DNA from: Nymphaea colorata
Lineage: Eukaryota > Streptophyta > Magnoliopsida > Nymphaeales > Nymphaeaceae
Length of the DNA: 64,000 bases
Assembly (NCBI RefSeq): GCF_008831285.2
Contig: NC_045140.1
Coordinates: 9,916,505 to 9,980,504 of the forward strand
Direction of reading: 5' to 3'
Shown here: positions 1,214 to 43,917 of the stretch, piece by piece
Numbering within the stretch: position 1 is the stretch's first letter
How the letters are laid out: each line of letters opens with the position of its first letter
Notes under the pieces: model-generated
The model's input: only the letters and a program-made list of their open reading frames with translations
The model's database searches: none
Told to the model about the DNA's origin: nothing
Position numbers and translations under genes: made by a program

Positions 1214-2557
1214 CATGCATTAGATATTTTTTTTGCTGTGTGTTGGTTTTTACTCTTCTTTTTTAGTTGGTTGGCTTAATTTGGCATATGATACCGTCTA
1301 CATATTCAAAATTGTGCATAGAACAATGGAATGAAAAAAACAAGTTTTTTTTCTTGGATAAACTGCAGGCATGGGCCTGCCATGTACTCACGTGCTCCCC
1401 CTTTCTTCATTTTCCATATATTCACATGCTTTTACAATCAATCGATTCTATTATCTTCTTTTAACATATTATTTTTTATGCATTGAATATATTTAGTTAA
1501 AAAATGTTCAATATTCCCTACAGCATAATGCACAATTTTTTTTGTGGTTCACGGATCATATTAGGAGACCAATTTTAATATTGGATGTATGTGAGATCTG
1601 TTGTCTTTTTCTACCTTATTTGCAATTCACGGTTTGTTTGCATTGAAGACCTCACTTGAAAAAAGTCTAGTAATTTTCCATTGATGTCCGAGCAGCTAGA
1701 TTCGATCATCATATGAATCAAATGTCAATTCTTGTTCCTTGATGATCTTATTATACATATATTGTCATACTTTAGATGTGTTTGTGAATGATTGCATGTT
1801 GGGTATGTGCATTAATTATGTTGACATTTAATTCATTTTTTTTTTTTGTGGCCCACCCTTCTTTGTACATGGTGGGAAACACTACATTAAACTAGAATGT
1901 GATCATTATTATTTTGTTTGGGATCCATATCTAATTAGTACCGTTGTTTCCTTTGGCTGCTATGCAGTCAGTGAACAGCATAGTGGAGTCACATGAAGTA
2001 CAAAGTTGCACACTTGACCCAGGATAGAATTGTGGGAGCAGTTTATGAAGTTTAAGATGCACCCCACATATATAACCAGTAGACACATTCCATATATGCA
2101 TACTAGACTATGTAAGATTATGGATGTATTTGGGATTTCTATTGGAACAGCTAAATCAGGTAGAACAATGCTTCACCCTATCCCAAATGATAAGTGGGGC
2201 CCACTTAGAGAAAAATGTTTGGAAAGACATGACAATGCATAAACATTTGAGAAGGCAGTTATTGAGATTCAACTCAAGGAGGAGCGCGAATAAAATAAGA
2301 GTTCTAATGAGCCTGTGCTACACCTATGTTCAAAGAATAGTGGGATGGCACAAATGGCACACTAGAAAGAACTACTCCTAAACCTTTTTCAATAGGAGGT
2401 TATATATCGAAATTTCTTGATATAGCACGCGAATGCGCTGAGCTCTATATTCAGATTTTAGACACACAAATTGTTGATTGATATTATTTTGCTTATTTTT
2501 TAGAAAAGGAACCTTTGAACATGGTTGTAGTGGGTCTATTTAGATTCATATTTTTTA

Positions 2558-2627
<70 letters not shown>

Positions 2628-3009
2628 TGCCTGTTTGTCATGCATGAACTTCTTTTTTGATATGGGGAATTAATGAAGGTCATTATTTTATTAATGATTC
2701 AATTTTTGTGCAAGATTAATTCTTTAATTGTGTTTGTAATACTTGGTTTCATGTGCATAATGATGCATCTACTTCTGTAGGATATTAGAGTTAAAGAGGA
2801 TAACCTAGTTATATAGTCATAGATCACTAAGAGAGTTGGAGACGATTTCGAACTTAGTGACGTTTTGATTCTACCATGTGAAGTACTATAGAACAAATGG
2901 TGTTCACTTAACTATAGATATAGACGTGCAATAAGTTTCCTTTGACATATATTAGCAACACACAATTTAATTATTCTGATGGTTGTTTCTTTTTTTATTT
3001 GCTTAGGAT
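1214..3009. other. AT-rich region without recognised genes
   Basis: Short open frames around 2030-2381 carry no family signature I recognise. The region holds a T-run near 1839 and a compound microsatellite at 2559-2623. The sequence directly before the gag start at 3010 might be the element's untranslated leader, but no primer-binding site or LTR edge was found. Confidence 0.4.
2559..2623. repeat. Compound (TG)n(TA)n microsatellite
   Basis: About 8 TG units run directly into more than 20 uninterrupted TA units. It is likely to be length-variable between individuals. Confidence 0.95.
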
Positions 3010-3421
3010 ATGTCTGCTCCAAGTAAGTTAATCTTAGATTTGGCACATATTGGGAACTTGAATGGAGATAACTATGATATATGGTATAGAATGATACAGT
3101 TCACCTTAAAAGAGGTTGAAACCCTTGATGCACTAAGCCACATTATAACTAAATATAAGGGAAATAGTGCATATGCACAAAATGACTCCAAGCTTATAAT
3201 TCATGGAAACATTAAAAATAGTGTGGCTAAAGTTACAATGTTGTGCTCAATCGAAGATGACATCATGTGTCAGTTTGAGCAACGCACTATTGCGAAACAA
3301 AAGTGGCTAGCCCTCAAAGACAGGTTTGGTAGAATATCAACTACTGGACTAAGCTCACTATTAAATTTGACACATATCGCAAATAATACCAACATATTGT
3401 TGGTTAGCATCTCAGAGAGAT
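3010..3421 (+). pseudogene. Copia gag polyprotein, 5' part (truncated)
   Basis: The frame opens at the ATG at 3010 and stays open for about 137 codons of gag-like sequence. It has the N-terminal motif L-N-G-D-N-Y-x-x-W typical of plant Ty1/Copia gag proteins, then a helical segment containing W-L-A-L-K-D-R-F, as in the UBN2-type gag domain. At 3421 gag similarity stops abruptly and satellite repeats begin, so the remaining residues of the open frame, up to 3471, are satellite-encoded. The last 251 bp (3171-3421) recur at 16637-16887 with three mismatches and no indels, and there the gag continues. The two parts therefore look like one element split by a 13.2 kb segment. It is non-functional in its present form. 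Confidence 0.85.
3171..3421 (+). repeat. 251-bp direct repeat, left copy
   Basis: Left member of a pair with 16637-16887: equal length, 3 substitutions by eye, about 98.8% identity. The pair brackets the satellite array and the GST gene. Confidence 0.95.
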
Positions 3422-6400
3422 TTTTTTTTATGATACACTCAGATAAAATCATGTTTACATGGATGCAATAAGCACTCAAGAAAATTAAATGTGGTGACAC
3501 TCCATGAACTAATTTTGTGATAAAAAAGCATTTTTAAAGTATCGACAACGCAACTGCAAGATTTGTTTTATATCACACCCAAGTAAAGTCATGTTTACAA
3601 GGATGCAGTATGCACTCAAAAATTAAATGCGACTACGAGACTGTATGTATTGGTTTTATGTTAAAAATCTGCTTACTAAGAGGTGATAAGGAGTCAAACA
3701 AAAAATCATTCAATAACGCAACTATAAGATTGTTTAAGATACACCCAAATAAAGTCTTGTTTACAAAGACGCGATAAGCACTCAAAAAATTTAAACGCGA
3801 CAACGACACAATGTGGAATGATTTTATGATAAAAGGGCATTTACTAACAGGTGATAAATAGTTAGAAAAAAAATCATGCGATAACACAACTGTTGTATTT
3901 ATTTTATGATACACTCAAATAAAATCATGTTTACATGGGAGTGATAAGCACAAAAAATTATGCGATAACGCAACAACATGATTCATTTAAAGATATACAC
4001 AAGTAAAATCATGGTTACAAGGATGTGATAAACACTCAGAAAAATTAAAAGCGACAATGACACTATATTCACTGGTTTTATGATAAAAATGTCTTAACTA
4101 AGAGGCAATAAGCTGTTAGACAAAATAGGTTTTGATAACATAACTAGAGGATTTGTTTTACGATACTCTCCAATAAAATAGTGTTTACAAGAATGTGATA
4201 AGCACTCAAAAAGACTAAATGAGAAAATGATACTATATGGACTGGTTTTACAATAAAAAGGCATTTACTACGATAAGCAGTCGAGCAAAACAGATCACGA
4301 TAATGCAACAACAAGATTCGTTTCATGATACACTAAAATAAAACAACGTTTAAAAGGACCCGATAAGCATTCAAAAAAATTAAATTCAATAAAAACACTA
4401 TATGGTCTTGATTTACAATAAAAGGCATTTACTAGGAGGCGATAAGTAGTCAGACAAAACAGATTGCGATAACACAACTTTAATATTCATTTTAAGAAAC
4501 ATTCACATACAATTGTGTTTACAAGGTTCCAATAAACACAAAAAATCATTGGATAGTGCAGAGGCAGGATTCATTTTATGATGCACTCAAGTAAAATCAT
4601 GTTGACATAGACATGATAAGCACATCGAATAAATGTAAAGACAACATTGTATGCTGGGTTTTACGAAAAGAAGGTGTTTACTAAGAGGCAATAAAATCAT
4701 TTCTGCAAGGCCTAGAAAAGTACTTGATGAAATTCAATGCAACAATGACAGTGTATTGACTGGTTTTATGATAAAAAGTTGTTTAATGAAAGCAAAAAAT
4801 AGTCGGACAAAATAGATTGCGATAACGCAACTGCAAGATTCATTTCACAATACACCCAAATAGACATGTTTACAAGGATGTGATAAACACAAAAAATCGT
4901 TCGACAATGCAACTGTAGGATTTATTTTATGACACTATATGGACTGATTTTACATTAAAAAAAAGGCATTTACTAAGGAGCGATTACCAGTCAGACAAAA
5001 CAGATTGCAGTAAAACAAAGCAGGTTTCGTTTTACAATACACTCAAATAAAATCGTGTTTATAAAAGTATGATAAGCACTCGAAAAAATTAAATAAGACG
5101 ACATAATATAGACTAGTTTTACAATAAAAAAGTGTCTACCAAGAGGCGATAAGCAGTCAGACAAAACAAATTATAATAACACAACTATATGATTCATTTA
5201 CGAAACACTCAAATAAAATCATGTTTATAAGAATGAGATAATTACTTGAAAAGACTAAATGCAACAATGACATTATATGGATTGGTTGGATGATAAAAAT
5301 GCATTTACTAAGAGCCATTAAGCAGTCTAGAAAAACAAATTGCGATAATGCAGTTGTAGGATTCATTTTTGGATCCATTTAATAAAATAGTGTTTCTAAG
5401 GTTGCAAAAAAAAAAACAAAAAAAAAATCAAATGCAACAACGATTGTATAGACTGGTTTTACAATAAAATGTTTATTAAGAGGTTATAAGTAGTCAGACA
5501 AAAAATCGTGTGATAATGCAACTGTAGGATTTGTTTGAAGTTACACACAAATAAAATATTCTTTACAAAGAAACGATAAGCACTCAGAAAATTTAAATGC
5601 AACAATGATGCTATGTGGAATGGTTTTATGATAAAAATGTGTTTACCACTAGTGATAAACAATCAAACAAAAAATTATGTGATAACAAAACTGAGGATTC
5701 ATTTTATGATACACTTAAATAAAACCATGTTTACATGGATGGATAAGCACTAAAAATTGTGTAACAATGCAATTTCATGATTCATTTGAAGACACAATCA
5801 AGTAAAATCATGTTTACAAGGACATAATAAACACTCAAAAAAATTAAATGTGACAATGATACTACATTCACTGGTTTTACAATAAAAATGCTTACACTAA
5901 AAGGCGATAAGTAGTGAGACAAAATAGATTGCAATAACATAACTATAGGATTTGTTTTACGATACAACGAAATAAAACCATGTTTAGAAAGACGCAATAA
6001 GCATTTAGAATAATTAACTGCAACAAAGACATTGTATGTATTGTTTTTATGATAAAAAGATGTTTACTAATAGACAATAAACAGTCGAACAAAACAGATT
6101 GTGATAACACAACTATAGGATTTGTTTTCCGATACACTCACATACAATATACTCAAATAAAATTGTGTTTACTAAGACACGATAAGCACAAAAAATTGCA
6201 AGTAATGTAACTACAGGACTCGTTTTACGATACACTCAAGTAAAGTTGTGTCTACAAGGACATGAGAAGCACTTAGTGAAATCGTATCTATAACGACACT
6301 GCATGAACTAGTTTTATGATAAAAAGCATTTACTAAGAGGCTACAAGCAATCAGACAAATCAAATTGCGATAATCCAGGATTCATTTTATAATACACTCA

Positions 6401-8168
6401 AATAAAATTGTGATTACAATGACACGATAAACACTCGAAAAAAATAAATACAACCATGACATTGTATGGACTGATTTTACGATAAAAAAGAATTTACTAA
6501 GAGGCGATATGCAGTCAAATAAAAAATGGTGCAATAAGGCTGCAATAAGTATCCACAAAATTAAATGTGACAACCACATTGTATGGATTGCTTTGACAAA
6601 GGTGTTTACTAAGAGCCAATATGTAAGCAGACAAAATAGATTATGAAAAAGCAACTGCAGGATTTTTTTTATGATACACCCTAGTAAAATTGTGTTTGCA
6701 AAGGCACGACAAGCACTCAGAAGAATCAAATGTGATGATGACAATGTATGGGCTGCTTTTACGATAAAAAGACATTTACTAAGAAATGATAAGTAGTCGG
6801 GTAGAATAGATTGTGACAACACAACTACATGATTCGTTTTACGATACACTGAAGTAAAATTGCACATAAAAGGGCACGATAAGCTCTTCAAAAAATTATA
6901 CATAATAATGACATTGTACGGGTTGGCTTTAAGATAAAAATGCATTTACCAAAAGCCAATAAGCAATCGAACAAAACATATTGTGATAACACAACTACAG
7001 GGTTCACTTTAAGAGACACACAAATGAAATCATGTTTACAAAGACATGATAAGCACTCGAAAAAACTCAATGCTACAACGACACTATCTGAACTTGTCTT
7101 ATGACAAAAAGGCATTTACTAAGAGGCAATAAGCAGTCAGACAAAATGGGTTGTAATAATACAATTACAAGATTCATCTTCTGATAGACTCTAGTAAAAT
7201 CATGTTTCCAGGGAGGTGATAAGAACTCAAAAAATTAAATATGATAACTTTACTGTATGAACTGGTTTTATGATAAAATGGCATTTATTACGAGGCAATA
7301 AGCAGATGAACAAAAAATAATGCGATAACACAAATGTAGGATCTGTTTTACGTTACTCTCAAATAAAGTCATGTTTACAAGGACACAATATGCACAACTG
7401 TAGTAAACTGATGTTTACAAGGACCCAATACACACTCAGAAAAATTAAATGCGACAACAACACTATATGGACTGGTTCCATGACAAAAAGGCATTTACTA
7501 AGAGATGATAAGCAGTCAGACAAAACAGATTGTGATACGATCTGACAAAATAGATAGTCATAGTAGGATTTGTTCTGATATAACAAAAACAAAATCATGA
7601 TTAAGAGGATGTGATAAACACTCGAAAAGAATAAATGCAACAACAACACTAAGAGGCAATAAACTATTGAACAAAAATTATTACGATAATGCAATAGTGG
7701 GATTTGTTTAACCATACACTAAAATAAAATCATGTTTTCAAGGACGTGATAAGCGCTCAAAAAAATTAAATACGACAACAAGATTGTATGGATTGGTTTT
7801 GCGATAAAAGGCATTTACTAAGAAGCAATAAGTAGTCGAACAAAATAGATTGCGAAAATGCAACTGTAGGGTTCGTTTTATGGTACACTCAAGTAAAATC
7901 GTATTTACAAAGAGATGATAAGCACTCAAAAAAGTTCAATGCAAAAGCAACAATGTATAAAGGGGTTTGACAAAAAAAGACATTTTTACTAGGAGGCGAT
8001 AAGCAGTTGGACAAAACAAACTATGATAATGCAACCGTAGATTTGGTTTTACTATACATCCAAACAAGATCTTGTTTACAAGAACGCAATAAGCACTTGG
8101 AAAAATTAGATGCGATAATCAAATTTTATCGACGGTTTGACGATAAAAAGGTGTTTACTGAGAGGTGA

Positions 8169-9138
8169 TTTTATTTAAGTGTATGATAAAATGAAACCTG
8201 CAATTGTGTTATCACAATTTATTTTGTTTGACCACTTACCATTTCTTAGTAACTGCCTTTTCATCGTAAACCAGTCCATACAGTGTCATTGTGGCATTTA
8301 ATTTTTTTGAGTGCTTATCACATCCTTGTAAACATAATTTTACTTGAGTGTATAGTAAAATGAATGCTGCAGTTGTCTTATCATAGGATTTATTGTGCTT
8401 ATCGTATGCTTGTGAACATGATTTTATCTAAGTGTATCATAAAATAAATCATGCAGTTGCATTATCACTTCTTAGTAAATGCATTTTCATGATAAATCTA
8501 GTCCATACAACATCGTTGTCGCATTTAATTTTTTCTAGTGCTTATTGCATCCTTCTAAGCACAATTTTATTTAGGTGTATCGTAAAATGAATCACGTACT
8601 TGCATTATCACAATCCGTTTTGTCTGACTGCTTATCGCCAGTTAGAAATGTCTTTTCATTATAAAAGCAGTTCATACAGTGTCTTTGTTGCATTTAATTA
8701 TTTTTTTTGCTTATCACCTCATAGTAAACACCTTTTTACTGTAAAGCCAGGCCATATAGTGTCATTGTTGCATTTATTTTTTTTTATTTCTTATCACGTC
8801 CATTTAAACACGATTTTCCTTGAGTGTTATGTAAAACGAATGCAGCAGCTATATTATTGCATGAATTTTTGTGTTTATCACCCCCTTATAAACACTATTC
8901 TATTTAAGTGTATGGTAAAATGAATCTTGTGGCTTCATTATCGCAATATGTTTTGTTCGATTACCTTTCATCTCATAAAAAACTCTTTTTTATCATAAAA
9001 CCAGTCCATATAGTGTCATTGTTGAATTTATTTTTCTGAGTGCTAATCTAGTCCTCATAAAGACCAAATGAATTCCTGTAGTTGTGTTATCACAACCTGT
9101 TTTGCTTGACTGCTTATTGTGTATGCCTTTTCATTGTA
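8169..9138 (-). repeat. Inverted block 1 of the satellite array
   Basis: Here the satellite reads in reverse complement, with words such as TGCTTATCGC and CATCGTAAACCAGTCCATA. The left junction, GAGAGGTGA to TTTTATTTAAGTGTATG, is a fold-back. The right junction near 9138 returns to forward units. The block is about 970 bp, or 5-6 units. Confidence 0.9.
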
Positions 9139-9355
9139 AAATCATGTTTACAAGGACATGATAAACACAAAAAATTGTGTGATAATGCGGTTAAAGGATT
9201 CATTGTACGATACGCTCGAAAAAATTGAATGCGACAAGAACACTATATGGACTGGTTTTACAATAAAAAGACATTTATTAAGACTTGATAAGCAATTGGA
9301 AAAAATCGATTACGATAAATCAACTACAAGATTCGTTTTACGATAAACTCAAACA

Positions 9356-9626
9356 TAGGGGTGGGCATCGGGCTGGGCCGGGTCGGCCCATCGGCCCCGG
9401 CCCGATATCCCGGGTCCCGGTCCGGTCCGGCCCGACCCAATGGGGGGAAGGGGGGAGAAGGAGAGGGGCAGAGGGGCAGGAGGTGGAGGCGGAGGGGGCA
9501 AGGGGGAAGAAGGAGAGGCGGAGGAAGGAGGAGGGGGGTGGAAGGGGGAAGAAGGAGAGGCGGAGGGTGGGGGGAAGGGGGAGAAGGAGAGGAGGAGGAT
9601 GGGGGACGGGAGGAGGAGGAGGATGG
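9356..9626. mobile_element. GC-rich hAT-like element end in the satellite
   Basis: A strongly GC-rich insert starts TAGGGGTGGGCATCGGGC and continues with repeated CCGGCCCGA-type words, then purine-rich GGAGAAGGAGAGG repeats. Its first ~90 bp resemble the start of the complete hAT-type MITE at 25615-26017. No matching right terminal repeat is present and satellite sequence resumes near 9627, so it is truncated or its right end was deleted. The apparent glycine/arginine-rich open frames here are compositional. Confidence 0.6.
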
Positions 9627-10207
9627 TATAGACCGTATAGACTGGTTTTGCGATAAAAAAAGAGTTTTCTATGAGATGAAAAGTAACCAAACAAAACAGA
9701 TTGCGATAATGAAGTCACAAGATTCATTTTACCATACACTTAAATAGAATAGTGTTTATAAGGGGTGATAAACACAGAAAATCATGCAATAATACAGCTG
9801 CTCAAAAAAATTAAATGCAACAACGAGACTGTATAGACTGATTTTGTGATAAAAAAGCATTTACAAAAAAGCAATAAGTAGTCAAACAAAGTAGGTTGTG
9901 ATAATGCTACTGCAGGATTCTTTTGATGGTACACTCAAGTAAAATTGTGTTTAGAAGATGCAATAAGAACTCGAAAAAGTTAAGTGCGACGACTATATGA
10001 AGGGGTTTGATGAAGAAAAGGCATTTACTAGGAGGCAGTAAGCATCTTGGCAAAACAAATTATGATAACGCAATTGTAGGTCTCGTTTTACTATACACTC
10101 AAATAAGATCACGTTTACAAGGATGCGATAAGCACTTAGAAAAATTAGATGCGATAGTGAGACTTTATCAACCGGTTTGATGATAAAAAGATGTTTAGTG
10201 AGAGGTG

Positions 10208-11147
10208 ATTTTATTTGAGTGTATGGTAAAGGAAAACCTACAATTGTGTTATCGCAATCTGTTTTGTTTGACTATTTATCACCTCTTGGTAAATGTCTTT
10301 TCATCGTAAACCAATCCATGCAGTATCGCTGTTGTATTTAATTTTTTCCAGTGCTTATCATGTCCTTGTAAACATGATTTTACTTGAATGTATCGTAAAA
10401 TTAATCATGCAGTTGTATTATTGTAGGATTTATTGTGCTTAGCATGAGCTTGTGAACGTAATTTTATTTGAGTGTATCCTAAAATGAATGATGTAGTTGC
10501 ATGATTGCTTCTTAGTAAATGTCTTTCTATGATAAATCCAAACCATACATCATCGTTGTTGCATTTCATATTTTCAAGTGCTTATCACAACCTTATAAGC
10601 ACAATTTTATTTGGGTGTATCATAAAATGTATCAAGTACTTGCATTAATAGCAATCCATTTTGTCTGACTACTTATCAACAACTAGTAAATGTCATTTTG
10701 TCATAAAACCAGTTCATACAGTGTCGTTGTTGCGTTTAATTATTCCGACAGCTTATCGCTTCATAATAGATACATGTTTTTTGTAAAGCCAACCAATGTA
10801 GTGTTGTTGTGGTATTTAATTTTTTTTAGTGCTTATCATGTCTATCTAAACACAATTTTGCTTAAGTGTTTTGTAAAACGAATGTTGCAGCTGCATTATC
10901 ACACGATTTTCTGTGTTTATTGCCCCCTTATAAACACGATTAAGTCCAACTACTTTTCACCTCATAGATAACTTCATTTTATCTTAAAACCAGTCCATAT
11001 AGTGTCATTGTCGCATTTATTTTGTCAAGTGCATATATAGTCCTTGTAAACACGATTTTGCTTTAGTGTATCATAAAATGAATTTTTGGAGTTGCGTTAT
11101 TACAATCTATTTTGTCTGTTTATTAGTAAATGCCTTTTCATCATAAA
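10208..11147 (-). repeat. Inverted block 2 of the satellite array
   Basis: A second reverse-complement block of about 940 bp. Its left junction lies exactly 2040 bp downstream of the equivalent junction of block 1, with the same word AGAGGTGATTTTATTT at 8161 and 10201. The right junctions are about 2007 bp apart. Flanking forward units also correspond, so the two blocks are copies of one higher-order segment. Confidence 0.9.
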
Positions 11148-12093
11148 ATTGTGTTCACAAGCACATGATAAACACAAAAAGTTGTGCGATAATGCTGCTA
11201 TAGGAATCATTTTATGATACACACAAAAAAATTAAAAGTGATAATGACACTCTATGGACTGGTTTTACGATAAAAAGGCATTTACTAAGACACGATAAGT
11301 AATTTGACAAAATAGATTATAATAATGCAACTGTAGGATTCATTTTGTGATGCCGTCAAATAAAATCATGTTTACAAGAATGCGATGAGCACTCAAAAAA
11401 GTTAAATGTGACAAGGACAATATATGGATTGGTTTTACGATAAAAAGGCATTTACTAAGAAGTAATATGCAGTCAGACGAAAAACAATTGTGATACCGCA
11501 TGATTCATTTTACGATACACTCAAACAAAACAGTGGTTAGAAAACCATGATAAGAAATAGGAAAAATTAAATGCGACAACAACACTTTATGGACAAGTGT
11601 TGTGATACAAAGGAGTTTACTAAGAGGTGATAAGCAGTCAGACAACACCAACTGCGATAATGAATCTGCAAGATTCATTTTACAATACACTCAAATAAAA
11701 TCATGTTTATAAGGACTAGGTAAGCACAAAAAATTATGTGATAACACAACTGTAAGATTTGTTTTATCATACACTGAAGTAAAATCATGTTTAAAAGGAT
11801 TCGATAAGCACACAAAAAAGTTAAATGCAACAATGACACTGTATGTACTAGATTTATGATGAAAAAGTACTTACAAAGAGGCAATAAGCAGTCAGATAAA
11901 ACAGATTGCGATAAGACAAATGCATGATTCATTTTATGATTCATTCAAATATAATCATGTTTGCGAAAACGTAATAAGAACTCGAAAAAATTAACTACGA
12001 CAATGACAATGTGTAGACTGGTTTTACGATAAAAAGACATTTACTAACAGGCGATAAGCAATCAAACACAAAATCGTGCAATAATGCAATTGC

Positions 12094-12179
12094 AGAAATA
12101 ATTTTACTTTACACTCCAATAAAGTTGTGTTTACAAAGAAATAATTTTACTTTACACTCCAATAAAGTTGTGTTTACAA
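12094..12179. repeat. 43-bp local tandem duplication in satellite
   Basis: The segment AGAAATAATTTTACTTTACA... recurs perfectly with a 43-bp period (starts 12094 and 12137). This is a recent small slip inside the older diverged array. Confidence 0.9.
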
Positions 12180-13527
12180 GGATGCGATAAGCACAAAAGA
12201 TCGTGTGATAAATCAACGACATGATTTGTTTTATGAAACATTCAAGCAAATCATGTTTATAAGGATGTGGTAAGCACTCAGAAAAATTAAATGCGACAAT
12301 GACACTATATGGATTGTTTTTACGATAAAAAGGCATTTTACAAAGAGGTGATAAGTTATCAAACAAAACAAATTGCGATAACCCAAGTGCAAGATTTGTT
12401 TTATGATACACTCAAATAAAATCGTGTATACAGAGACGTTATAAGCACTTAAAAAATTAAATGCAGCAATGATACTGTATAGATTGGTTTTATGATAACA
12501 ATGCATTTACTAAGGGGCGATTAGCAGTTGGACAAAATAGACTGTGATAACGCAACTACCAGAATTGTTTTACGAAATTCTAAAATAAAATCTTCTTCAC
12601 AAGGATGCGATAAGCACTCAAAAAATTAAATGGAAGAATGACACTGTATGGACTAGTTTATAATAAAAAAGTTTTTAATAAGAAGAGATAAGAAGTCAGA
12701 CAAAACATATTGCAATAATGCAACTCTAGAATTTCTTTTATGACATACTCAAATAAAATCATGTTTACAAGGATGCAATAAGCACTTTGAAAAAAGTATA
12801 AGCAACAACGACACTGTAAGGACTGGTTTGATGATAAAAAGTCGTTCACATAGATGCAATAAGATATCGTACAAAACAGATTGTGATAACATAACTGTAG
12901 GATTCGTTTTATGACACACTCATAAAATCGTGTTTACAGGGATGTGGTTGGCACTCGAAAAAATTAAATGCAACAATGAAACTTTATGGTCTAGTTTTAT
13001 GATAAAAAGGTGTTACTAAGAGGTGATAAGTAGTTGCACAAAATAGGTTGCGATAAAGCAATTGTTGGATTCATTTTACAATACACTGAAACAAAATTAA
13101 GCTTTTTGAAATGGGATAAGCACCTGAAATCATACGATGTCATAACTACGAGATTCATTTTATGATGCACTTGAGTAAAATCGTGTTTACATAGATGCGA
13201 TAAGCACGAAAAAAAATTATACGCGACAACGACATTGTATGGACTGTTTTTAAGATAAAAATGTGTTTAGAAGGAGGTGATAAGTAGTCTAATAAAAAAA
13301 ATTGATAATGCAGTTACAATATTCGTTTTAAGATACTTTCAAGTAAAATCATGTTTAAAAGATGCGATGCACACTCGAAAAAATTAAATGTGACAAGCAC
13401 ACTATATGGGAAGGTTCTACGATAAAAAGACATTTAAGAAAAGGCAATGAGCAGTGAGACAAAATAGATTGCATTTACACAACGGCAAGTATCATTTTAT
13501 GATGCACTCAAATAAAATCACGTTTAG

Positions 13528-14130
13528 AGATAAAATGTGATAATTTATTGACAGATATTTTGACTATGGGATCAGGTTAGACATTTTCTATTGCCAATAC
13601 ATGCTGCTAAAAGTTTTCATGTAGTGTTTTCATGTAGTTGGTTCAGCGGCTTGTGTAGCCAACGCAAGCATAGGCTGAGTATAACGGTAGAAGTACTAAT
13701 CTCGGAATTTTATGCCATTAAGTGAGAAACAAAGGCTTTCAGTCTGAATGCGGCTTCCTCAAGTGACAATTAATACACCAAAATATCTCCAATGAAGATT
13801 TCAGTGTTTTCATTAAACGGATTTAGTTTAATACACTAGGTGAGTGTTAATAGGCAACAAAAAGCACAACAACTATTCAAAAGTAAGAACGGACCACGTG
13901 TCAAGGCCTAATATGGAGCCAGCGAAACAGTGTCCAGAGGAACTCGTTACCTTTTTATATTAGCACAAGAACCGGACGTTTTTCTCCAAAAGAATATTTC
14001 TATCTTCTTCCTTAATTAAACAACTTTCTCGGTTTAGAATTGTATAATTTTTTAACTAAAAAAACATTTTCTCCAATATGTCATTCAATCAAGGGTGATA
14101 GTGTGGAAGATTCGTTCCAACGCCATTGGA
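13528..14130. other. GST upstream region, distal part
   Basis: Unique-looking AT-rich sequence between the satellite edge and the duplicated proximal upstream block. It holds a CACGTG G-box at 13895-13900. No ORF of interest was seen. Confidence 0.5.
13895..13900. promoter_or_regulatory. G-box CACGTG
   Basis: The palindromic CACGTG in the context ACCACGTGTC matches plant G-box/ABRE cores bound by bZIP or bHLH factors. It lies about 1.05 kb upstream of the GST start codon. Function is inferred from the motif only. Confidence 0.35.
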
Positions 14131-14527
14131 AGCAAACAATTGTCACATCAACGGAAAAATTAATAGTTTTTCCTTTTCAATTGAAGACAACAGAAAGAGA
14201 AACGCGAGAAGACTAAGTTAGGGCCTTCTAACATTAAATTTTCCCATCTTACCACTTATCACCACCTATGACGGTAAAATCAGTTCAGATTTTTAGAGCT
14301 CTCTATCGCTCTCAGAGCTGCGGCTTTCTCCAGATGACTGAAAGGTTCAGCATGTTAACATCGACAACGTCCTTGCTCACGTCAGTCTCCATGACTTCCA
14401 AGCCAATGTCCTTTTCGACCGAGGATTGATGACCGACGCCATTGCTGACCATTGACTTCATCCTCAAACTTGGGCTCCAAAACAGGCTGAAGATGTCATC
14501 AACCATAAATACACAAACACCATTCCA
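14131..14527. repeat. 397-bp tandem repeat, copy 1 (GST upstream)
   Basis: Starts AGCAAACAATTGTCACATC and ends CACCATTCCA. It is almost identical to the next 393 bp. The visible differences are a 4-bp deletion in the second copy near 14657 and a few substitutions. It contains TGACG at 14269-14273, TCACGTCA around 14378-14384 and an ATAAATAC word near its 3' end. Confidence 0.95.
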
Positions 14528-14662
14528 AGCAAACAATTGTCACATCAACGGAAAAATTAATAGTTTTTCCTTTTCAATTGAAGACAACAGAAAGAGAAAC
14601 GCGAGAAGACTAAGTTAGGGCCTTCTAACATTAAATTTTCCCATCTTACCACTTATGACCTA

Positions 14663-14667
14663 TGACG
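14663..14667 (+). promoter_or_regulatory. TGACG (as-1-like) motif
   Basis: TGACG cores, known as TGA-bZIP binding sites in several plant GST promoters, occur here and in reverse at 14774-14778. Both also occur in the upstream repeat copy. Five-base motifs arise often by chance, so this is suggestive only. Confidence 0.3.
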
Positions 14668-14898
14668 GTAAAATCAGTTCAGATTTTTAGAGCTCTCTAT
14701 CGCTCTCAGAGCTGCGGCTTTCTCCAGATGACTGAAAGGTTCAGCATGTTAACATCGACAACGTCCTTGCTCACGTCAGTCTCCATGACTTCCAAGCCAA
14801 TGTCCTTTTCGACCGAGGATTGATGACCGACGCCATTGCTGACCATTGACTTCATCCTCAAACTTGGGCTCCAATTCAGGCTGAAGATGTCATCAACC

Positions 14899-14906
14899 AT
14901 AAATAC
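14899..14906 (+). promoter_or_regulatory. Possible TATA element of the GST gene
   Basis: ATAAATAC lies about 50 bp before the ATG at 14955. That would leave a very short leader ending in a (GA)n run (14938-14954). A duplicate lies in the upstream repeat copy near 14506. The transcription start is not determined. Confidence 0.35.
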
Positions 14907-14954
14907 ACAAACACCATTCCAGCCACACCCGCACTCTAGAGAGAGAGAGAGAGA

Positions 14955-16041
14955 ATGAGCGAAGAAGTGAAGCTGCATAGCATTTGGGAAAGCCCATTCG
15001 GTTTCAGAGTACAAATTGCCTTGAGCTTCAAGGGAATCGAGTATGAATACATAGAAGAAGATTTGAAGGACAAGAGCGAGCTCCTGTTAAGATACAACCC
15101 AGTTCATAAGAAGGTCCCCGTGCTCGTTCATCGCGGGAAGCCGATACCAGAGTCGATGGTGATCATCGAATACGTCGAGGAAACCTGGCCAGAGAAGCCC
15201 ATCTTGTCAGAAGATCTTCATGAGCGAGCTATGGCACGATTCTGGGCAAAATTTTCTGATGATAAGGTGAAAAATAATTCATCAGTTTGTGCAAACCTCT
15301 CTCTCCCTATCCCTCTCCCTTCCTCTGTCACATACAAAGAGACAGACTTGTTTTATGCAAGGAAACTACACAGATCAAATTCATTCGAAATGGTTTATAC
15401 TGATTACGGGATCCAGGCATAAACACATACATATTATACCGGTTATTAGTGGAAAATCTATGGAGATTGGCTTTCCAAAGCATGGATTTTTCCATGTTTT
15501 GATAGTTTGAGAAACGCAGAGAAAACCGGGTAATCCCGCTGTCCAATTTCAGTTTAAAAACATGTTCTTGATTTTCTCTGTAGTGTTCTCCAATCCCTTC
15601 TCGAGGGATCGCACCACTTTTTTCTCTATATTCCCTTCATTCCTTGTTGGGGTACTCTCATGATTTTCCCTTTCCCTTTTCTAGTGCTCACCGGCAATTT
15701 TCAAATATTTCTCCACCCAAGGTGAGGAGCATGATAAGGCCAAGGCAGAGCTAGTTGAGAATTTGAAGACACTGGAAGGTGCATTGAAGGGTAACAAATT
15801 CTTTGGTGGAGAGACGATCGGACTAGTTGATATTGCAGCAGGCTGGATGCCTATGTGGATCCAAAGAATTGAAGAGGTCCTTGGTAACAAAGTTGTTGAA
15901 GAAAATAGTTTCCCACATCTGCAGGGTTGGTTCCATGACCTCCTGAATCTCCCTTTCGTGAACCAGAACCTGCCCCCACCTGAGAAACTCCGTGAGCACC
16001 TTAAGAACTTCCGCAACAGCTTGCTTGCACGATCAACCTAG
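14955..16041 (+). CDS. Tau-class glutathione S-transferase, two exons
   Basis: Exon 1 is 14955-15266 (104 codons) and exon 2 is 15685-16041 (118 codons plus stop). A 418-bp phase-0 intron with GT...AG ends lies between them, giving a 222-residue protein, normal for plant tau GSTs. The N-terminal thioredoxin-like domain has W-E-S-P-F-G-F-R with the catalytic Ser13, Lys40, K-K-V-P-V at 52-56 and Glu66-Ser67, the expected glutathione-binding residues. The C-terminal helical domain has [20 protein letters not shown] and L-P-P-P-E-K-L. The intron falls at the usual tau position after the F-x-D-D-K segment. The enzyme would conjugate glutathione to electrophilic compounds in the cytosol. The frame is intact, so it is probably functional. 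Reading through the intron from exon 1 gives a false 155-codon frame. No other gene lies nearby. It is flanked by satellite DNA and a Copia fragment. Confidence 0.95.
15267..15684 (+). other. GST intron
   Basis: The donor is AAG|GTGAAA and the acceptor is a pyrimidine-rich tract ending CTTTTCTAG|TGC. Removing it joins two frames that together match the tau GST family end to end. Confidence 0.9.
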
Positions 16042-16636
16042 CCTGCTATCTTGATGCTTCCCAGTTGCTTACTCTTTAGCTTGCTAGTTACCTAGAGAAG
16101 AATGACGGTGTGATATACTTATAAATGGCATGTAACAATATATATCGATGCTTATTTGTGATGCTTCAACGGAACCACAAATGCAAATTCTTGAGGTTCT
16201 CAGTTTACCCACATTTCTTCAACGATCTTGATTGAAGAGACACGGAGGCCACTGATGGCCCTGAAAATTTTACTCTTTGTGGACAATAATTCACATGTTA
16301 AAAGGAAATTCTGGTTTTTTTTATTTCTATAAGCAAACAATTAAACAGCGATGATCATGAACCAACTAAGCATTCCAACTGGAACTGACTGAAATCTATT
16401 TCGAAGCTATTGATAACTGTGCAAAAGTCCAAATGAATCTTCATTCACAGTTAATCTCTACAAGTAAAAACAACCAAAGGGCATGTCATAAAATTTAAAG
16501 CTTGCACCATTGACTGATGAAATGCACGGAAAGACTGATCAGATGCACCAGAAAGAGGATGTACACTCCTTGAAAACAACATACATGGAATTTTGCCAAT
16601 ATTGCCACCCCATTTTTACCATGACAAGGATACATA
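16042..16636. other. GST 3' flank
   Basis: AT-rich sequence presumably holding the 3' UTR in its first 150 bp. No canonical AATAAA was seen close to the stop. No further gene was recognised before the gag repeat. Confidence 0.45.
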
Positions 16637-16887
16637 ATATGCACAAAATGACTCCAAGCTTATAATGCATGGAAACATTAAAAATAGTGTGGCTAAAGTT
16701 ACAATGTTGTGCTCAATCGAAGATGACATCATGTGTCAGTTTGAGCAACACACTATTGCGAAACAGAAGTGGCTAGCCCTCAAAGACAGGTTTGGTAGAA
16801 TATCAACTACTGGACTAAGCTCACTATTAAATTTGACACATATCGCAAATAATACCAACATATTGTTGGTTAGCATCTCAGAGAGAT
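16637..16887 (+). repeat. 251-bp direct repeat, right copy
   Basis: Right member of the pair with 3171-3421. Here gag similarity continues downstream into the rest of the element but is cut off on the upstream side. Confidence 0.95.
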
Positions 16888-17344
16888 GGCTAATATGATT
16901 AGAGAACTAAAATCAGCAGGACACACCTTACGAATAAACAACAAATTCAAATAGTGATAAGATTGCTGCCAAATAACTGAGAGCATATGAAATTAATATG
17001 ACATATAACGAGAGCATCAATACTTTTAATGACATATGCCAACACCTGGAACTAGAATATGAGCACTTAGAAACTACCAAATCTAGTGGTCGAACTGTTA
17101 GATAATCATAGTCGATGATAACATCACTGTTCCCATCTCTATTCCAGAACCGTACATGAGACCTCAGCTTCATACGGCTCCTCAATGGTCACGAATAAAT
17201 CTAAGGTATGAAAGCTTGCAATTATAAGAGAAAGACGGGTGATGGTCCTAGGTGGTTTAAAAATAAAATTGCAAAATATGAGGACAAAAAAAAAACAAGA
17301 TGGCAAACAGAGACGCCACATGAAACAAATGCTTTAACTGTGGG

Positions 17345-17772
17345 TAGGGATGTCAACGGATCGCATTCTGATCGGATACATCTTTAATCATATCCGCTTT
17401 TTCGGATATTCATATATTCAGATTCGGATTCAGATTCGAATTCAAATAAAGCAAAATCATATCCGAATCCAAACCCGAAATCTGATTTTACGATCCGAAT
17501 CCGATTTTTATATTTATATCCAAATCCGAATCCAAATTTTGAACCGGATTTTGCCATTTTTCAAGTATTAGATAGAGGATATTTGTATAAAAAAGAATCT
17601 GATCCGATATTTATGTATATCCGAATCTGAATCCGAATCCGATCGGATGTCATTTATTAAATCTGAATCCGATCCGATTTCTTAATCGGATATTAAATTT
17701 TTATCCATATCCGATTTTTTCGGATTGGATCGGTTGGATATCCGATTCAAATCAGATATATTGACATCCCTA
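17345..17772. mobile_element. hAT-type MITE with 8-bp target duplication
   Basis: The ends are TAGGGATGTCAA and TTGACATCCCTA, a perfect 12-bp terminal inverted repeat. It is flanked on both sides by ACTGTGGG (17337-17344 and 17773-17780), an 8-bp target duplication typical of hAT transposons. The 428-bp interior has no transposase and is packed with ATCCGAAT/ATTCGGAT-type words on both strands. It sits inside the zinc-knuckle codons of the Copia gag, so it inserted after that element. Confidence 0.93.
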
Positions 17773-20060
17773 ACTGTGGGAAGCTTGTTCGCTTGGGAGT
17801 ATCGAACCAAAGAAGGTGCACACTTTTTTTACCTTAAGTTCTTTTTTTTTATTTCACTAATTTCTCTCAACCTTTGTGGATTGCAGATTCAAGAGCAACA
17901 GACCTTGTGATGCATGATACCAGATCATTCATTGAATATTGAAATATCTAGCATGAAAAAGGTGTTGCTCTTAAAGAACAATAGTCGTACAGAACTATGT
18001 GGAATTGAAACTTGCCAATTGGTTTTTGTGAGTTGATGAGAGCCACTATTGCATGATGTTCTTCATGTCCCAGATATTAAATGAAATTTAGTCGTTGTTT
18101 CTTCTTTAATAACATTTGACTATAAACATACTTTCAATAACAATTTTATTAACATATTGTCCACAGACTTAGTTATTTGTTTTAGTGTATTAATGAATTG
18201 TTTATTTGTTTTAAATACTTATTCAAATTCTCATTATGAAAATGATGAATGATTTAATATACATGTTAATGTCGATGCATGTACTAGCATGCTCGCTAGG
18301 GCATATTGCACAAAATAGAATGATTAGACTGGCTCGAGAGAGATTACTATGATCCCTTACAAATATTGACATGTTTATCTGCGAACATTTTTTAGCGGGA
18401 AAAGCATCTCGAAAACCATTTGGGAGCAATGAGTATTGCATCTAGATGTGGTGCATCATACTTCATCACTTTTATGGATGACTACACTTGATACTGCTAT
18501 GTATATGATCTCTCGTAAGTCTAAGGTGTTGGATTGCTTCAAACGCTTCATGAACTTGATAGAGAACTAGCTTGATTGAAAAAACAAAGTCCTTCAAATA
18601 GATCAAGGTAAAGAATATTTGTCTGAATAGTTTAAAGAAATGTGTGATGAAAAAACATAGATAGACAACTGACCACCCCTCACACACCATAACAAAATGG
18701 CATTGTTGAGAGAAGAAATCAAACATTGATGGATATGGTCATGTCCATGATGGTGCTAGCACAGTTACACATTTCCTTTTAGGACAATTGTCTACTGACT
18801 GTGACATGAATCCTTACTGTGTACCCACAAAATCCGTCTCATCAACTCGGTATGAATTATGGATAGATAGGCGGCCTGACCTTAATCATTTGAGACCTTA
18901 AAGAGTATGCAACACATGTTAACAATCATTCTCATGAATATAGTAAACTAGGACTGAAGAAAAAGAAATGTATCTTCATTCGATATAGTGAACACTCCAA
19001 AGGTTACGTCTTCCTATAAGAAAATGTAGATAGAAGTATGACCGAGATAGATTCTTGGGATGCTACATTCGTTGAAAATGATTTTCCTAAGGAAGGAAAT
19101 ATAAATAAAGATGTCCAATTATATGAGTTGGATGACCCAGAATATACAAAGACAAATGATCAAGAAATAGTGATAAAAGATGTATGGTCTCAATTGGCTC
19201 ATGATAGTTAGAGTGAACCACATGAGGGTTAGAATATAGATGTGGTGCCTCATTAGAGTGCGAGAAAAATAATACCACACCACATATTTGAGATAGAAAT
19301 TGAAGTCATGATACCAATACCTGATGACATTAATGTTTTGAAATAGGTGTGTGAGACTCTCTCTTGCCTAGAAAAAGAAGAATATAAGAAATCAGAGGAA
19401 GAAGATAAGAGATCCATCAGCAATAACAATGTTTAGAAACCTGTTCATCTTTCTTCGCAAGGAGGACCATTGGGAAAAAATAGGTTCTCAATATCTAGAC
19501 AAATGCAAGTGAATCCATTCAAAGATTCAAAGCTCATCTTGGATAGGTTTATTTGAAAGTTGTTAAAGGATCATGCGGTACTTAAAAGGCATTAAAAATT
19601 TAGCAGTATGCCATTACGGTGGTTAGTTGTGGCTTAGGGTTACATAGTTGTAGATTGGGTTGTTGAACCTAATGAATGTAAGTTTAAGTCTGGATATGTA
19701 TTTCTGCTCAATAGTTGTATGATATCTTCGTGTAGCAGAAACAAATGTGCATAGCCTTTTCTACCATTGAAGCTGAATTTGTAACTTGGTTCATGGTAGT
19801 ATAAGAGGGTGTTTGGTTGATGAGATTTTTTAAACATTTTAACATTGTCTCGAAAGTAAGTATTCCGATTGATATTTACTATGATAATCAAGCTGCAATT
19901 GCTTTTGCCAAGAATCTCAAATTTCATTTTAAAACTAAACATATCGATATTAGATGTAAAAACTTGAGGGATGTGATATAGAAGGAAAAAGTGTTGTTGA
20001 ACTACATTACTACTTATGAAATTGTAGCATATCCTCTTACTAAGTCTTATTGTTGATGCA

Positions 20061-20359
20061 TTTAAAAAACATGTAATGTCCATAGGACTCACTAGAATAT
20101 ATATCTTTTTTTGGATAAAAAAAATCATGGCTAAATTCATGTATGTCACGCATCCATATGTAAGAATGTAGTGAGAAAAGGATCGCCCTTGGTCACTGAG
20201 TGTCAAGTGAGTTAAGATGAAATGGACAAAACCGAGAAATGTTTTAAAAACAGATACAGGTTTTTGTGGATCTTAAATGTCGGGTATGAAATGATAACAT
20301 CATGTAAAAGTTTTTCTCATCAACTTGATTGATCAAGAAAAGGCCTTATACTGTGGAAC
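20061..20359. other. Possible 3' end of the Copia remnant
   Basis: AT-rich sequence after the RNase H remnant. It may include the polypurine tract and part of an LTR, but no second LTR copy was found to confirm this. Confidence 0.3.
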
Positions 20360-20692
20360 TTAGGGGGCGTTTGCTTCATAGGAAATACACTGTTCAACAG
20401 GAAATTTATTTCAATTTTTAAATTTTTTCCATGTTATCAAACATGGAAAAGAAAAATCGACCGTTGAAAGAGAATCCAGAAATATATTTTCCGAAACATC
20501 TTTCCACCCAGCGGGGTGGAAAGATATTTCCTAGTTTTTTTTTTCTGCCCGTTGGAGCAGCGTCATCCGTCGTCGTCTCACCAGCGTTGGGCATCTCCTC
20601 AGCAAAACATCCAGCAGAAGAAGGGGAAAGAGGAAGAAGGGAAGAAAGGGGAAAGCGTCTCACCAGCGTTGGGCATCTCCTCACACACAGCA

Positions 20693-21105: not shown

Positions 21106-21200
21106 CTAAAATAGGGGAAAGAGGAAGAAGGGAAGAAAGGGGAAAGAGGAAGAAAGAAGGGGAAAGGGAAGAAAGGGGAAAGAGGAAGAAAGAAGGGGAA
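21106..21200. repeat. Purine-rich GGAAAGAGGAAGAA tandem repeat
   Basis: Several copies of a GGGGAAAGAGGAAGAAAGAA-like unit. Related sequence also occurs at about 20617-20655 on the other side of the GC-rich cargo. Confidence 0.85.
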
Positions 21201-21456
21201 AGTGCATTGTCCATCGCCCAGCACCTCACGCCCAGCACAGTCGTCGTCTTCCTCTCCTCAGGCACAGAACCGTCGTCGTCTTCCCCTTCCTTGTTTTCCA
21301 ATTTTTTTTCATCAAACAAAGAAATTTTTTTCCAGAAAAATAATTCCTATGTAACAAACAGAAGGTGGTTTTGGACATATGGAATTTTATTTCCAATTCA
21401 TCAATTCCAGAAATTTTTTTCCATTTCTATATTTCCTGCCGTCAAACGGCCCCTTA

Positions 21457-23162
21457 AAGACCGACATGATCTCCAAAATAATGTTGACTTGGTAACCAGA
21501 TTCGAGGGCCCAAATCATCTTAATGGGACTAAGAGGGACATTTTTGAGAACTCGAGTCAATTCTCTAGAAAGAGTTGGACTCATGATGTTTCATATGGCA
21601 ATGAAAATTTTTTTCAGTGCTTGCATACACTTATTGAATATAAGTTGACCTATCGTAATATGTGCAACATACCACGCATGTTGCACTAATAAATAAGTCA
21701 ACCTAAATGAAAGATGAAGAATAATCCATGCTTTCTCGTTATGTAAGTTCCAACAAATATGGGATGATTTGATGTCAAATCATGTATTTACTTTGATTTC
21801 TCTTATGGACTCTTAACTGTGTTCATTGATAACAAATTAGGATTGATACTTTAGCATGCCTAAGGCCATGAGGGATTGGACTGACTGTGACGTATTTTTT
21901 CAAAGAAAAAACAGCTTAGTTTAAAATTTGTTGAATATATGTAGAAGATGAAGATCATTTGTCACTACACTGGTGCTCATTTTTACTACCAACAAAGTTA
22001 AATTGCCAAAAGAGAGACTTGATTCAATAGTAAACATGAAGTATAGTTGGAGACCTTAGTCTAACACATTTAACATCATCAAGTGATGAGGGATTGAATG
22101 CGTTGAGACCCATGTAGATGAAATTTTTATCTAGGAAGCTATTCATGGAGCATATGACTGCACAATTTTTTTTTTTACGTGACGCTACTGTGTTACTCTA
22201 ACCAATACACCCTTGGCCAGTTTTACTATGCTCAAGGGGGGCATGGTCCTATCGCCAGTATGTTGAATAATAATGCATATCTAAACTATTAGAGAAATAT
22301 TCATGTCTCTTTGCCTATCATGTGCGAGTAGAAGAATGGACTTTCATGTCTGAGTCTACCCATGATGGGCAGGACCCAAGCTTATGAGCCAAGTACGGTA
22401 ACACACTATCATTTGCAATATTGATAGTTACCATTTTTAATTCGATTGAAAACATAAAATTTGATGAGTAAAGGGTAACAAAAGAAGATAGCCTGGGGTA
22501 TGGCAATCGACAAAAAATGGAAAAGTATCCATGGTAGGAGAGGGAAGCAACTATTCTAGTTGATTGCTGAGAGAATGCGGTAAGGATTATGTTGGGTGTT
22601 CTCCGGACTGAGAGTATGTCATCCCTGTCGAGTCCCCATAGCTGGTCTGCATCCACTGCAAATCGGACGTAACCAAAACTAAACTGTTTCTCTAAGATGG
22701 ATAGTACCTTATTCAGTACCATTAAAACTATTTTATAAATGTAAGGTCCATGACACTATGAAATGGCAAGAGATCCATTAATAACCAATATGCTTTTGAT
22801 ATGTCCATAACAAAGTAAAATATAACAACATGCATGTGTAGGCCATTGATCTTCAAATTGCTCAGCTATATCTAATTTGCAGTTAAATGTCCTAAAGATA
22901 CCTGCAAGATAAAGATTGATGTTCAAGAATGAGTATATTTTCATATACTCGGTAAGTTTCCTTGTTGTATACTAAATGTAGAAACAATTATTTAATGACA
23001 ATCATAACACGAAAATATGCATGACATGCAATCACATTATCAGAATGGTCAAACTATAAATAAGCAGCTAAACCACTAAAATTTAAAAGCATAATACAAT
23101 ATAATCCTCAAACATCTCCTATTTTTAATCATGGCCACTTTTAGAAATCTCTGCAAGATTAA
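21457..23162. other. AT-rich region, no recognised gene
   Basis: The longest open frame is 134 codons on the minus strand (22318-22722). It has no motif I recognise, and the plus strand across it is about as protein-like, so no gene is called. Confidence 0.4.
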
Positions 23163-24760
23163 GTTTCTTCAGTTATCCATTCCTTTTAAATAGTTTTGAC
23201 ATAATTCCTGCTTAACGGTCCCACTGATACACAACAATGGTTCATTTCCATCATCCATGTGCGAGTGGTCAATTGATCCAGAAGCTTAGACTTGAGGGCA
23301 GGGATAATAAGGCGTCTATGGTGGCAAAGGCCACATCAGCTTTGAACTTATTGGGCTTAATCCCTCAGATTTCAATCGCATATGCGCCCATTGGTTCTAG
23401 CCCTATGAAAATCCAGTTGGGTCATCTCACAAGCTACTACGATTTGTTGCTCATTTCCCCAGAGCTATGCCTCTCATAAATGGGTAACAGTCTTTTAAAA
23501 GCATAGGTTTTGGTCAATACAACAAGCAATAAGTCTGTTAGGTTCACAAGTACAAATAAACAATTATGCCATCACTTGGTAATCGAGCCACTATGAACAT
23601 AGTCGATATGAGAATCAACCATTCCAATTACGTAATTCTCAATCCAAATATAATGGTATTCTTAATTGTCGAAGCATGAGAACATTCACTAAATACCTCA
23701 TAGGAATATGAAATCATCTGACGAACAAATGTCATATGCAGGGATTATTAGCAGTCAAGAGGCAACTAATAATACAGAACATAAACTAATTAATCACATA
23801 CTTATTTGCAGATTGATCATATGAGGACCGACATGAAAAACATTACATCGGATGCAGAGCGTGTGATCAGTGCCAGATGATATAAAACCATCATAACAGC
23901 TATTGCTCTATATTTCTTGTGGCACTAGGACTACAATGCCCAAAACATTGGCCCCTCTAGAGCCTTGTAGATCCTTTATCTTGAAACCTAGCTACAGGGT
24001 CTTTGCTAAATTGCATAGCAGCTAACATGCGTCTGAGGATGGTTTTAGGATATGCATGCTAAGAGTAGCATAATACCATTATATCAATACATGTAATAAT
24101 TGTTTCTAGAGTGAGCAATGTGTAACACATGTTTGGGGGTCGCATTAATATTTACTAGCATGAGGTGTTCAATGGTATAAGGTTTGGCCCGTAGATTCTT
24201 CCAACTTGCAAAGTTGGGGATAGTGTGAGTTCATAAAACCTGCAATTTCAAGTGATCTAACCTAATTCTTATGATTATATTAGCTTTAATTAAGCATGCA
24301 TTAGTCCTAATTTACAATATAATTACCTAAACCCTAGCACTCCGTACCGAAACTTAATGTGAACCATAGTGGTGTCGAGAGTGAAGTTAGATTCGCCCTT
24401 AACATAGTAATAGAAATCGTAAAACACATGAGATGCACAACTAAACCCCTCGTTGAGTTCTCCCCTCCTCTTTGTTTTAAATTGTGCCCTCCCTATTCTC
24501 TTCCTCCTCCTTGCAGATCGTATTCTTCTTATGTCTCCTCCTTTTCTCCCTTTCCTCTCTCTTTCCTTTCCCCATCCCCCTCTTTATCTCTATCTCAGCC
24601 TTTCACGTTCAGTCCCAAGGAGGACGCCTCCTCCTCTTTTTATATTAATATTACATTTTGTTCTTTATTATAATTAAATGATTAAGAACCGATACGCAAT
24701 TTAGTTATTAATTAATTAAAATACTGAAAACAATCTATTTTCGTGGCTCATCATTTGCGT
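23163..24760. repeat. Segmental duplication, left copy (pairs with 29511-31630)
   Basis: Collinear, moderately diverged similarity, roughly 75-85% by eye, to 29511-31630 in the same orientation. Anchors include GAGGGCAGGGATAATAAGGC, AAGTCTGTTAGGTTCACAAG and TTGAGTTCTCCC. No intact protein was recognised in either copy. Confidence 0.85.
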
Positions 24761-31630: not shown

Positions 31631-31974
31631 AATGACCACACAAAAGCTCTGAGCTACATGAGCCTGTGCATTGTCACCTGATGTTCAGGTTCAAAATAAG
31701 CTAGAAATGCTGAATAACATAACTACAATGATATTCAAATTATTTTTTTCTAGACAAAAGAGAGAATCAACAGGGTTGGCCATACACATATTCATGTCAT
31801 ACCCATCATCGAACAGATGTTAAGGTGAATCCCCATGCATGACGATATTAACTCGTAGCATCATTCTATCAGGAGCACAACGTTAACACATGCATCAAAA
31901 AATGTATATTGGCACATAAATTAAGTAGTACTGACATCAACCTCTCAAGCTATTTGTTAGAAGGTTATGGATCT

Positions 31975-32320: not shown

Positions 32321-32339
32321 CTTTACTAATGAGATACTT

Positions 32340-36590: not shown

Positions 36591-36599
36591 TGAACTGAA

Positions 36600-43905: not shown

Positions 43906-43917
43906 TGGTATCAGAGC
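43906..43917 (+). other. Primer-binding site, initiator Met tRNA
   Basis: TGGTATCAGAGC is complementary to the 3' end of plant initiator methionine tRNA. It lies 2 nt after the LTR end, the classic arrangement in Ty1/Copia elements. Confidence 0.92.

Follow-up and report, generated by a model that had tools for sequence, protein, structure and literature searches.

Probable duplicative copying of a satellite array and a tau-like GST gene into a Copia-type gag region of Nymphaea colorata, with a 251-bp direct repeat at the edges

Repeats that flank moved genes have been explained in two ways, by recombination through shared repeats that existed beforehand (e.g., those of a circle) or by a target duplication. 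In Arabidopsis, flanking repeats of at least 15 bp accompany 11 of the 25 transposed genes whose parent is known, and the authors of that report prefer circles or ectopic recombination over long target duplications where they discuss these repeats (Woodhouse, Pedersen, and Freeling 2010, PMC2869330). A survey of Brassicaceae also connects transposed genes with the repair of breaks, citing the flanking repeats (PMC6379040). According to the model of microhomology-mediated break-induced replication (MMBIR), the end of a replicating strand jumps to a distant template where 2-5 bp of microhomology allow it and comes back later; if it comes back behind the original collapse, a duplication results (PMC2621351). 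We analyzed a 64,000-nucleotide stretch of the Nymphaea colorata genome (the window; positions 9,916,505 to 9,980,504 of NC_045140.1), in which a satellite array and a two-exon, tau-like glutathione S-transferase (GST) gene together form an insert inside a Copia-type gag. The locus is a transposed gene with flanking repeats, a known kind of arrangement, for which the source has been resolved 3.28 Mb downstream. The insert is very probably a DNA-level copy of 13.2 kb of that source, made in the course of repair or replication. The target element, the insert (S), the two copies of the gag segment (R1 and R2), and the left and right remainders of the element (U and V) are laid out as follows.

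1949..3170, + strand: U, left portion of the Copia-type element, comprising its 5' region and the beginning of gag (ATG at 3010), delimited by similarity to six family loci
3171..3421, + strand: R1, left copy of the gag segment; its final 4 bases, AGAT (3418-3421), are common to the source locus
3422..16636, + strand: S, insert of 13,215 bp, a collinear copy of approximately C3:13196869-13210570 of the same assembly
16637..16887, + strand: R2, right copy of the gag segment; its opening 4 bases, ATAT (16637-16640), are common to the source locus
16888..20362, + strand: V, remainder of the decayed Copia-type element, delimited by family similarity and containing short open frames only

The original prediction had described a 251-bp overlap with three substitutions and no gap, and a base-by-base alignment of 3171-3421 with 16637-16887 agrees: 251 bases align with 3 substitutions (segment positions 31, 114, and 130) and 0 gaps. 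The pairing is far beyond chance (expect value, E, of 2e-123 in a self-comparison of the window), and the similarity breaks off sharply at either end, with different sequence outside. The 251-bp block takes in both 4-base junction stretches. Genome searches were made in one assembly (407.8 Mb, 783 contigs), where the segment has 15 matches; the two in the window are 100 and 99% identical to the query and the third best is 81%, so that matches outside the window are at most 81% identical, save short partial ones (83-86% over 76-115 bp).

We compared six family loci (L003-L008), drawn from the 13 non-self matches, with 1.5 kb on each side. In 6 of 6 the segment is present once and uninterrupted, between sequence resembling U and sequence resembling V; the U-side alignments of L005 and L006 quit the segment about 26 bases early, and the V-side alignment continues past that point. 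The doubled segment is therefore not a normal feature of the family; had it been one, the proposal of an interrupted gag would have been undone. The family copies indicate that the repeat is derived from the target. Similarity of U to these loci starts between 1949 and 2205 and continues into the segment. On the right, family similarity ends at 20362, as seen in 7 copies among the matches listed, which extends the element beyond the end at 20060 proposed earlier. Similarity at the level of the family is shown; the proposed Copia gag identity is a putative one, with weak domain matches: Pfam gave only Retrotran_gag_2 on the gag pieces (E 0.0045 and 0.0021; 16.9 and 18 bits versus a cut-off of 27). 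No retroelement domain was found in the 5 plus-strand pieces of V that were scanned, no pair of long terminal repeats (LTRs) for the element was found in the satellite-masked window self-comparison (E up to 1e-4), and a primer-binding-site motif has a single occurrence in the window, at 43906, away from the element. At two of the three sites that distinguish R1 from R2, R2 carries the base of all six family copies and R1 is derived; the third site varies within the family and cannot be polarized. Both polarizable substitutions thus sit on R1 and none on R2, although with two sites only this may be chance. Separately, a dispersed repeat of ~430 bp at 17345-17773 forms a second interruption, within the right-hand part of the element; it accounts for 31 of 51 matches among those listed, at 85-91% identity (40 of 4041 candidates scored, a lower bound).

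The contents of the insert are given below.

3426..13529, mixed strands: satellite array with a monomer of ~169 bp and 84-bp half units (profile search, 72 hits)
14119..14921, + strand: tandem duplication of 394 bp shortly before the GST start codon, where the source has one copy
14955..15266, + strand: GST exon 1, with a GT donor at 15267
15685..16041, + strand: GST exon 2 including the stop codon, with an AG acceptor before 15685

The prediction of a satellite array plus an intact tau GST gene was borne out for the array at 3426-13529 and for the open reading frame of the gene; the array is not all in one orientation. Its blocks run + (3426-8169), - (8204-9144), + (9136-10209), - (10244-11148), and + (11143-13529), and the source array has the same order of + and - blocks. 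The inverted blocks 8204-9144 and 10244-11148 recur with their adjoining sequence at a spacing of ~2.04 kb (75.8% identity over 1.19 kb), and together with their neighbors they constitute an old unit of higher order that includes inversions. The satellite family occurs on C1, C2, C4-C9, and C12-C15 besides C3, as a lower bound; among the best 11 of 154 and 13 of 323 candidates scored in searches with satellite pieces, in which the window's own exact copy was unlisted, the longer matches are mostly ~65-80% identical to the query and grouped over a few kb (likewise a lower bound).

Splicing out the 418-bp intron, which has GT-AG borders, leaves a GST reading frame of 222 codons that is free of internal stops. 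Two exons mark the tau class of GSTs. Pfam places GST_N and GST_C in the two exons, and the solved structures that match the protein include several named tau class or GST-U; on its domains, its two exons, and these tau-type relatives, the gene is a predicted tau-class GST. The copies in the window and at the source are both open and differ by one codon, codon 36, which encodes Asp in the window and Tyr at the source. Retroposition of the gene, which would have removed the intron, was considered and is ruled out because the 418-bp intron is kept in the window copy. The halves of the 394-bp duplication are 97-98% identical, and this duplication may alter the GST promoter.

For the GST block (13540-16636), the assembly contains a single further close copy, on the same chromosome, 3.28 Mb downstream, and in the same orientation; here the satellite and GST pair was found together, as the original prediction had proposed to look for. 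No third close copy of the block was found (5 of 5 candidates scored), the next matches being 75% identical over 194-342 bp. Comparison with 60 kb around this match (L018) aligned window 3421-14013 with C3:13196869-13207469 (97.8%), 14007-14527 with C3:13208355-13208861 (96.5%), and 14516-16653 with C3:13208467-13210588 (95.2% with gaps counted). The insert is collinear with the source across 13.2 kb, with identical order and orientation. The source array starts at C3:13195038, 1.8 kb beyond the left breakpoint of the insert, and its monomers continue unbroken through that breakpoint, with an 84-bp half unit of a type found elsewhere in the array. As the array extends past the breakpoint, the window copy must derive from the downstream locus and not the reverse. 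The gag segment was not found at the source, where the only flank match is 17 bp (E 0.09). A search for Copia sequence next to the source, with U, the gag segment, and V against the flanks, gave only stretches of 28 bp (E 0.003) and 17 bp (E 0.09); the two pieces of V that match source flanks fall in the dispersed 430-bp repeat, ~18 kb from the breakpoint. The source contains ~885 bp of extra, CT-rich sequence (C3:13207470-13208354) that is missing from the window copy, and visual inspection of its ends shows an inverted CGTTTGAT-like motif, which suggests a small DNA transposon.

Both junctions can be read to the base. On the left, the target ...GAGAGAT/GGCTAA and the source ...ACAAGAT/TTTTTT gave the product ...GAGAGAT/TTTTTT, with a T run shorter by one in the product; on the right, the source ...CATAATAT/ACAAGA and the target ...GTGCATAT/GCACAA gave the product ...CATAATAT/GCACAA. 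Microhomology is exactly 4 bp at each junction (AGAT left, ATAT right), and zero bases were added. Of 100,000 random joins simulated for each junction, 2.5% on the left and 2.2% on the right had at least 4 bases in common. Sequence beyond ATAT hints at weak extra similarity at the right junction, an extension that 68 of 2000 random places matched or exceeded. The left end of the insert is a monomer boundary within the satellite array, and the right end lies 595 bp past the GST stop codon.

The rough age that the original prediction drew from the repeats is sustained, and the comparison of insert and source adds an independent clock. R1 and R2 have diverged by 3/251 (1.2%). Across 3422-14013, 204 of 10,579 sites are substituted relative to the source (1.9%), with 148 transitions, 56 transversions, and 17 indels as aligned (one at the edge); the satellite part alone has 199 of 10,108 (about 2%). 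The GST part (14516-16636) has 18 of 2071 (0.9%), distributed as 1/670 in coding sequence versus 17/1401 (1.2%) in the rest (p 0.011), which hints, on few changes, that both GST copies may be under constraint. The repeat pair does not differ from the satellite (Fisher p 0.49) or from the GST part (p 0.49). Divergences of the repeat pair, the noncoding GST part, and the satellite are thus compatible, and one event can explain all of them. With substitution rates of 0.7-1.3e-8 per site per year, which hold for Arabidopsis and rice and are not the species' own, the age is about 0.5-0.9 million years from the repeat pair and about 0.75-1.4 million years from the satellite.

These observations agree with the single insertion with a long target duplication that had been proposed: the segment is single in six family copies, the source lacks it, and the ages are compatible. 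The joint transfer of gene and array also held, but the source is still in place, which makes the event copying rather than a move. Duplicative, DNA-level copying of the 13.2 kb from the source into the Copia gag, coupled to repair or replication, is thus the reading in which we place high confidence. We infer its enzymatic route and the order of its steps as follows. Repair or replication would have been under way in the gag of the old Copia element when a growing end departed at AGAT, at the end of the repeated segment, and paired with AGAT in the satellite array of the source, 3.28 Mb downstream. The end would then have copied 13.2 kb, comprising 10.1 kb of array, the complete GST gene, its upstream region, and ~600 bp of 3' flank, before leaving the source at ATAT and re-entering the element at an ATAT 251 bp behind the point of departure. 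Re-entry behind that point would double the segment. This out-and-back, MMBIR-like template switching at microhomology has close to an even chance of being the actual route. Alternatively, and with an identical product, in which nick positions would be traceless, two opposite nicks ~250 bp apart may have been followed by fill-in of both ends, with a copy of the source captured between them as in patch repair with filler; such capture at a staggered break is a possible but more doubtful route. Patch-mediated tandem duplications have reportedly been described in rice by Vaughn and Bennetzen (2014). In the rice data summarized in PMC7971508, the share of tandem duplications among insertions drops from 70% to 5% as length reaches 200 bp and is ~5% from there on, the longest being 4.9 kb, so that 251 bp is possible for patch repair, but in the tail. 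We lean slightly to template switching because 251 bp is long for patch repair and microhomology is present at both joins.

Several points weigh against duplicative copying by either route. The copied length of 13.2 kb is long both for a template switch and for filler: early template-switch tracts are described as hundreds of bp to a few kb (PMC2621351), and filler at rice transposon excision sites as 1-123 bp (PMC4423477). The 4-bp microhomologies are suggestive rather than proof, the clock from the repeat pair is loose with 3 changes only, and the empty site is reconstructed from family copies at 72-81% identity and not from this locus. Furthermore, the satellite has diverged more than the GST part (p 0.0002), a gap that we ascribe to presumably faster satellite change together with constraint on the gene. 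The source is still present, as it would be if the copy had been synthesized by replication, but capture of a sister-chromatid fragment would give the same picture.

The alternative that survives best, although unlikely, is an assembly artefact in which an allelic source segment was joined between two contigs that overlap by 251 bp in gag. The 1-2% differences, the 394-bp duplication, and the presence or absence of the 885 bp would also suit two alleles, the R1/R2 differences would then be heterozygosity, and the assembly consists of 783 contigs with a 5,000-N gap ~12 kb to the left of the source segment. Against this, the window is free of N, a contig overlap would not predict microhomology at both joins, and the differences look mutational in their mix of transitions, transversions, and indels; the genome also holds no further copy of the gag segment above 81% and no third close GST block.

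Recombination into gag of a circular DNA that carried the satellite, the GST gene, and the gag segment, a route also raised in the original prediction, has a lower probability still. It is of the type favored for repeats flanking transposed genes in PMC2869330, but such recombination would call for a repeat shared by source and target, and the gag segment was not found at the source; the source array is moreover unbroken at the left breakpoint. Human circle-mediated duplications are recognized by permuted order, which arises when a circle opens at a new point (PMC7450558), whereas the blocks here are not permuted. A circle reopened at its own joint would be traceless, yet it would still require the long target duplication.

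Very little probability attaches to unequal or ectopic homologous exchange between two Copia-family copies. The repeated segment is transposon sequence with family members across the assembly, but no Copia sequence was found adjoining the source segment and only 4 bp are common at either junction, where such an exchange would need homology, so this earlier suggestion is not sustained. That a transposon (Helitron, Pack-MULE, or LTR element) carried the insert is comparably improbable. It would account for movement of the gene and its flank as DNA with a target duplication. Target duplications of these elements are short, and a CTRR-like end motif is among their hallmarks; by eye, neither inverted termini nor a CTRR-like 3' end is present at the breakpoints, which lie at a monomer boundary of the array and beyond the GST stop codon, and no third copy of the GST block with the same ends was found (5 of 5 candidates scored). 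Two independent truncated insertions of the same family, overlapping by 251 bp around a satellite-GST locus, are the least credible, since, for all the decay of the element and the presence of family copies, R1 and R2 are 98.8% identical versus at most 81% for other copies (short partial ones aside), and the source has the sequence of the insert without any Copia.

Set against described systems, duplicative copying at this locus comes closest to the Arabidopsis transposed genes of PMC2869330. As in the cases described there, the gene was copied at the DNA level, not by retroposition, with its intron and flanks and with an identifiable parent still present, and direct repeats longer than 30 bp (251 bp here) edge the copy and match the target site. 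The repeats in that report are mostly host genic sequence, and its preferred explanation is a circle or ectopic recombination; this locus differs from its cases in a repeat that was not found at the source, in 4-bp microhomology at the junctions, and in a co-copied 10-kb satellite array. Given that no copy of the repeat was found at the source, the reading less favored in that report, a long target duplication, fits the present case better. Whole-gene transposition in Drosophila (Yang et al., cited in PMC2869330) likewise has transposon-derived flanking repeats, of 44-433 bp, a range that includes the length seen here, but there the transposon repeats are associated with the events, whereas the repeat at the present locus resembles a duplicated piece of the target. 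The locus shares with MMBIR, or fork stalling and template switching (FoSTeS), as set out by Hastings, Ira, and Lupski (2009, PMC2621351), microhomology of 2-5 bp at both junctions, a remote insert, and duplication upon return behind the departure; it differs in being a single out-and-back excursion with no added complexity seen, with a 13-kb tract, and in a plant. The patch-mediated duplications of rice (PMC7971508) also directly duplicate the break site, but they are described as simple tandem duplications, common below ~125 bp, and 13 kb separates the copies here. In primates, the repair-mediated duplications reported by Pace et al. (2009, PMC2671141) resemble the locus in intrachromosomal copying and breakpoint microhomology, and differ in reaching up to 619 bp, from donors <5 kb away, with target duplications of 4-21 nt.

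The locus suggests that a single step can copy a complete gene along with 10 kb of satellite. Product and source are both readable, and the target can be deduced from family copies. The locus could serve as a model for testing, genome by genome, how genes of plants depart from their syntenic positions. A more speculative generalization, to which we give a low probability, is that the long direct repeats found beside transposed genes in plants are often target duplications formed by out-and-back template switching over tens of kilobases, with satellite arrays as preferred points of departure or landing. If so, microhomology among monomers would favor satellite arrays, a gene and its satellite could spread as a unit, and the present locus would be a source-resolved instance.

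Elsewhere in the window, older duplicated blocks at 68-84% identity pair 23158-24478 with 29505-30942, 31951-33064 with 48725-50401, and 36530-40274 with 60895-64000. Purine-rich, low-complexity stretches occur at 9441-9626 (within the array), 21113-21202, and 25768-25893.

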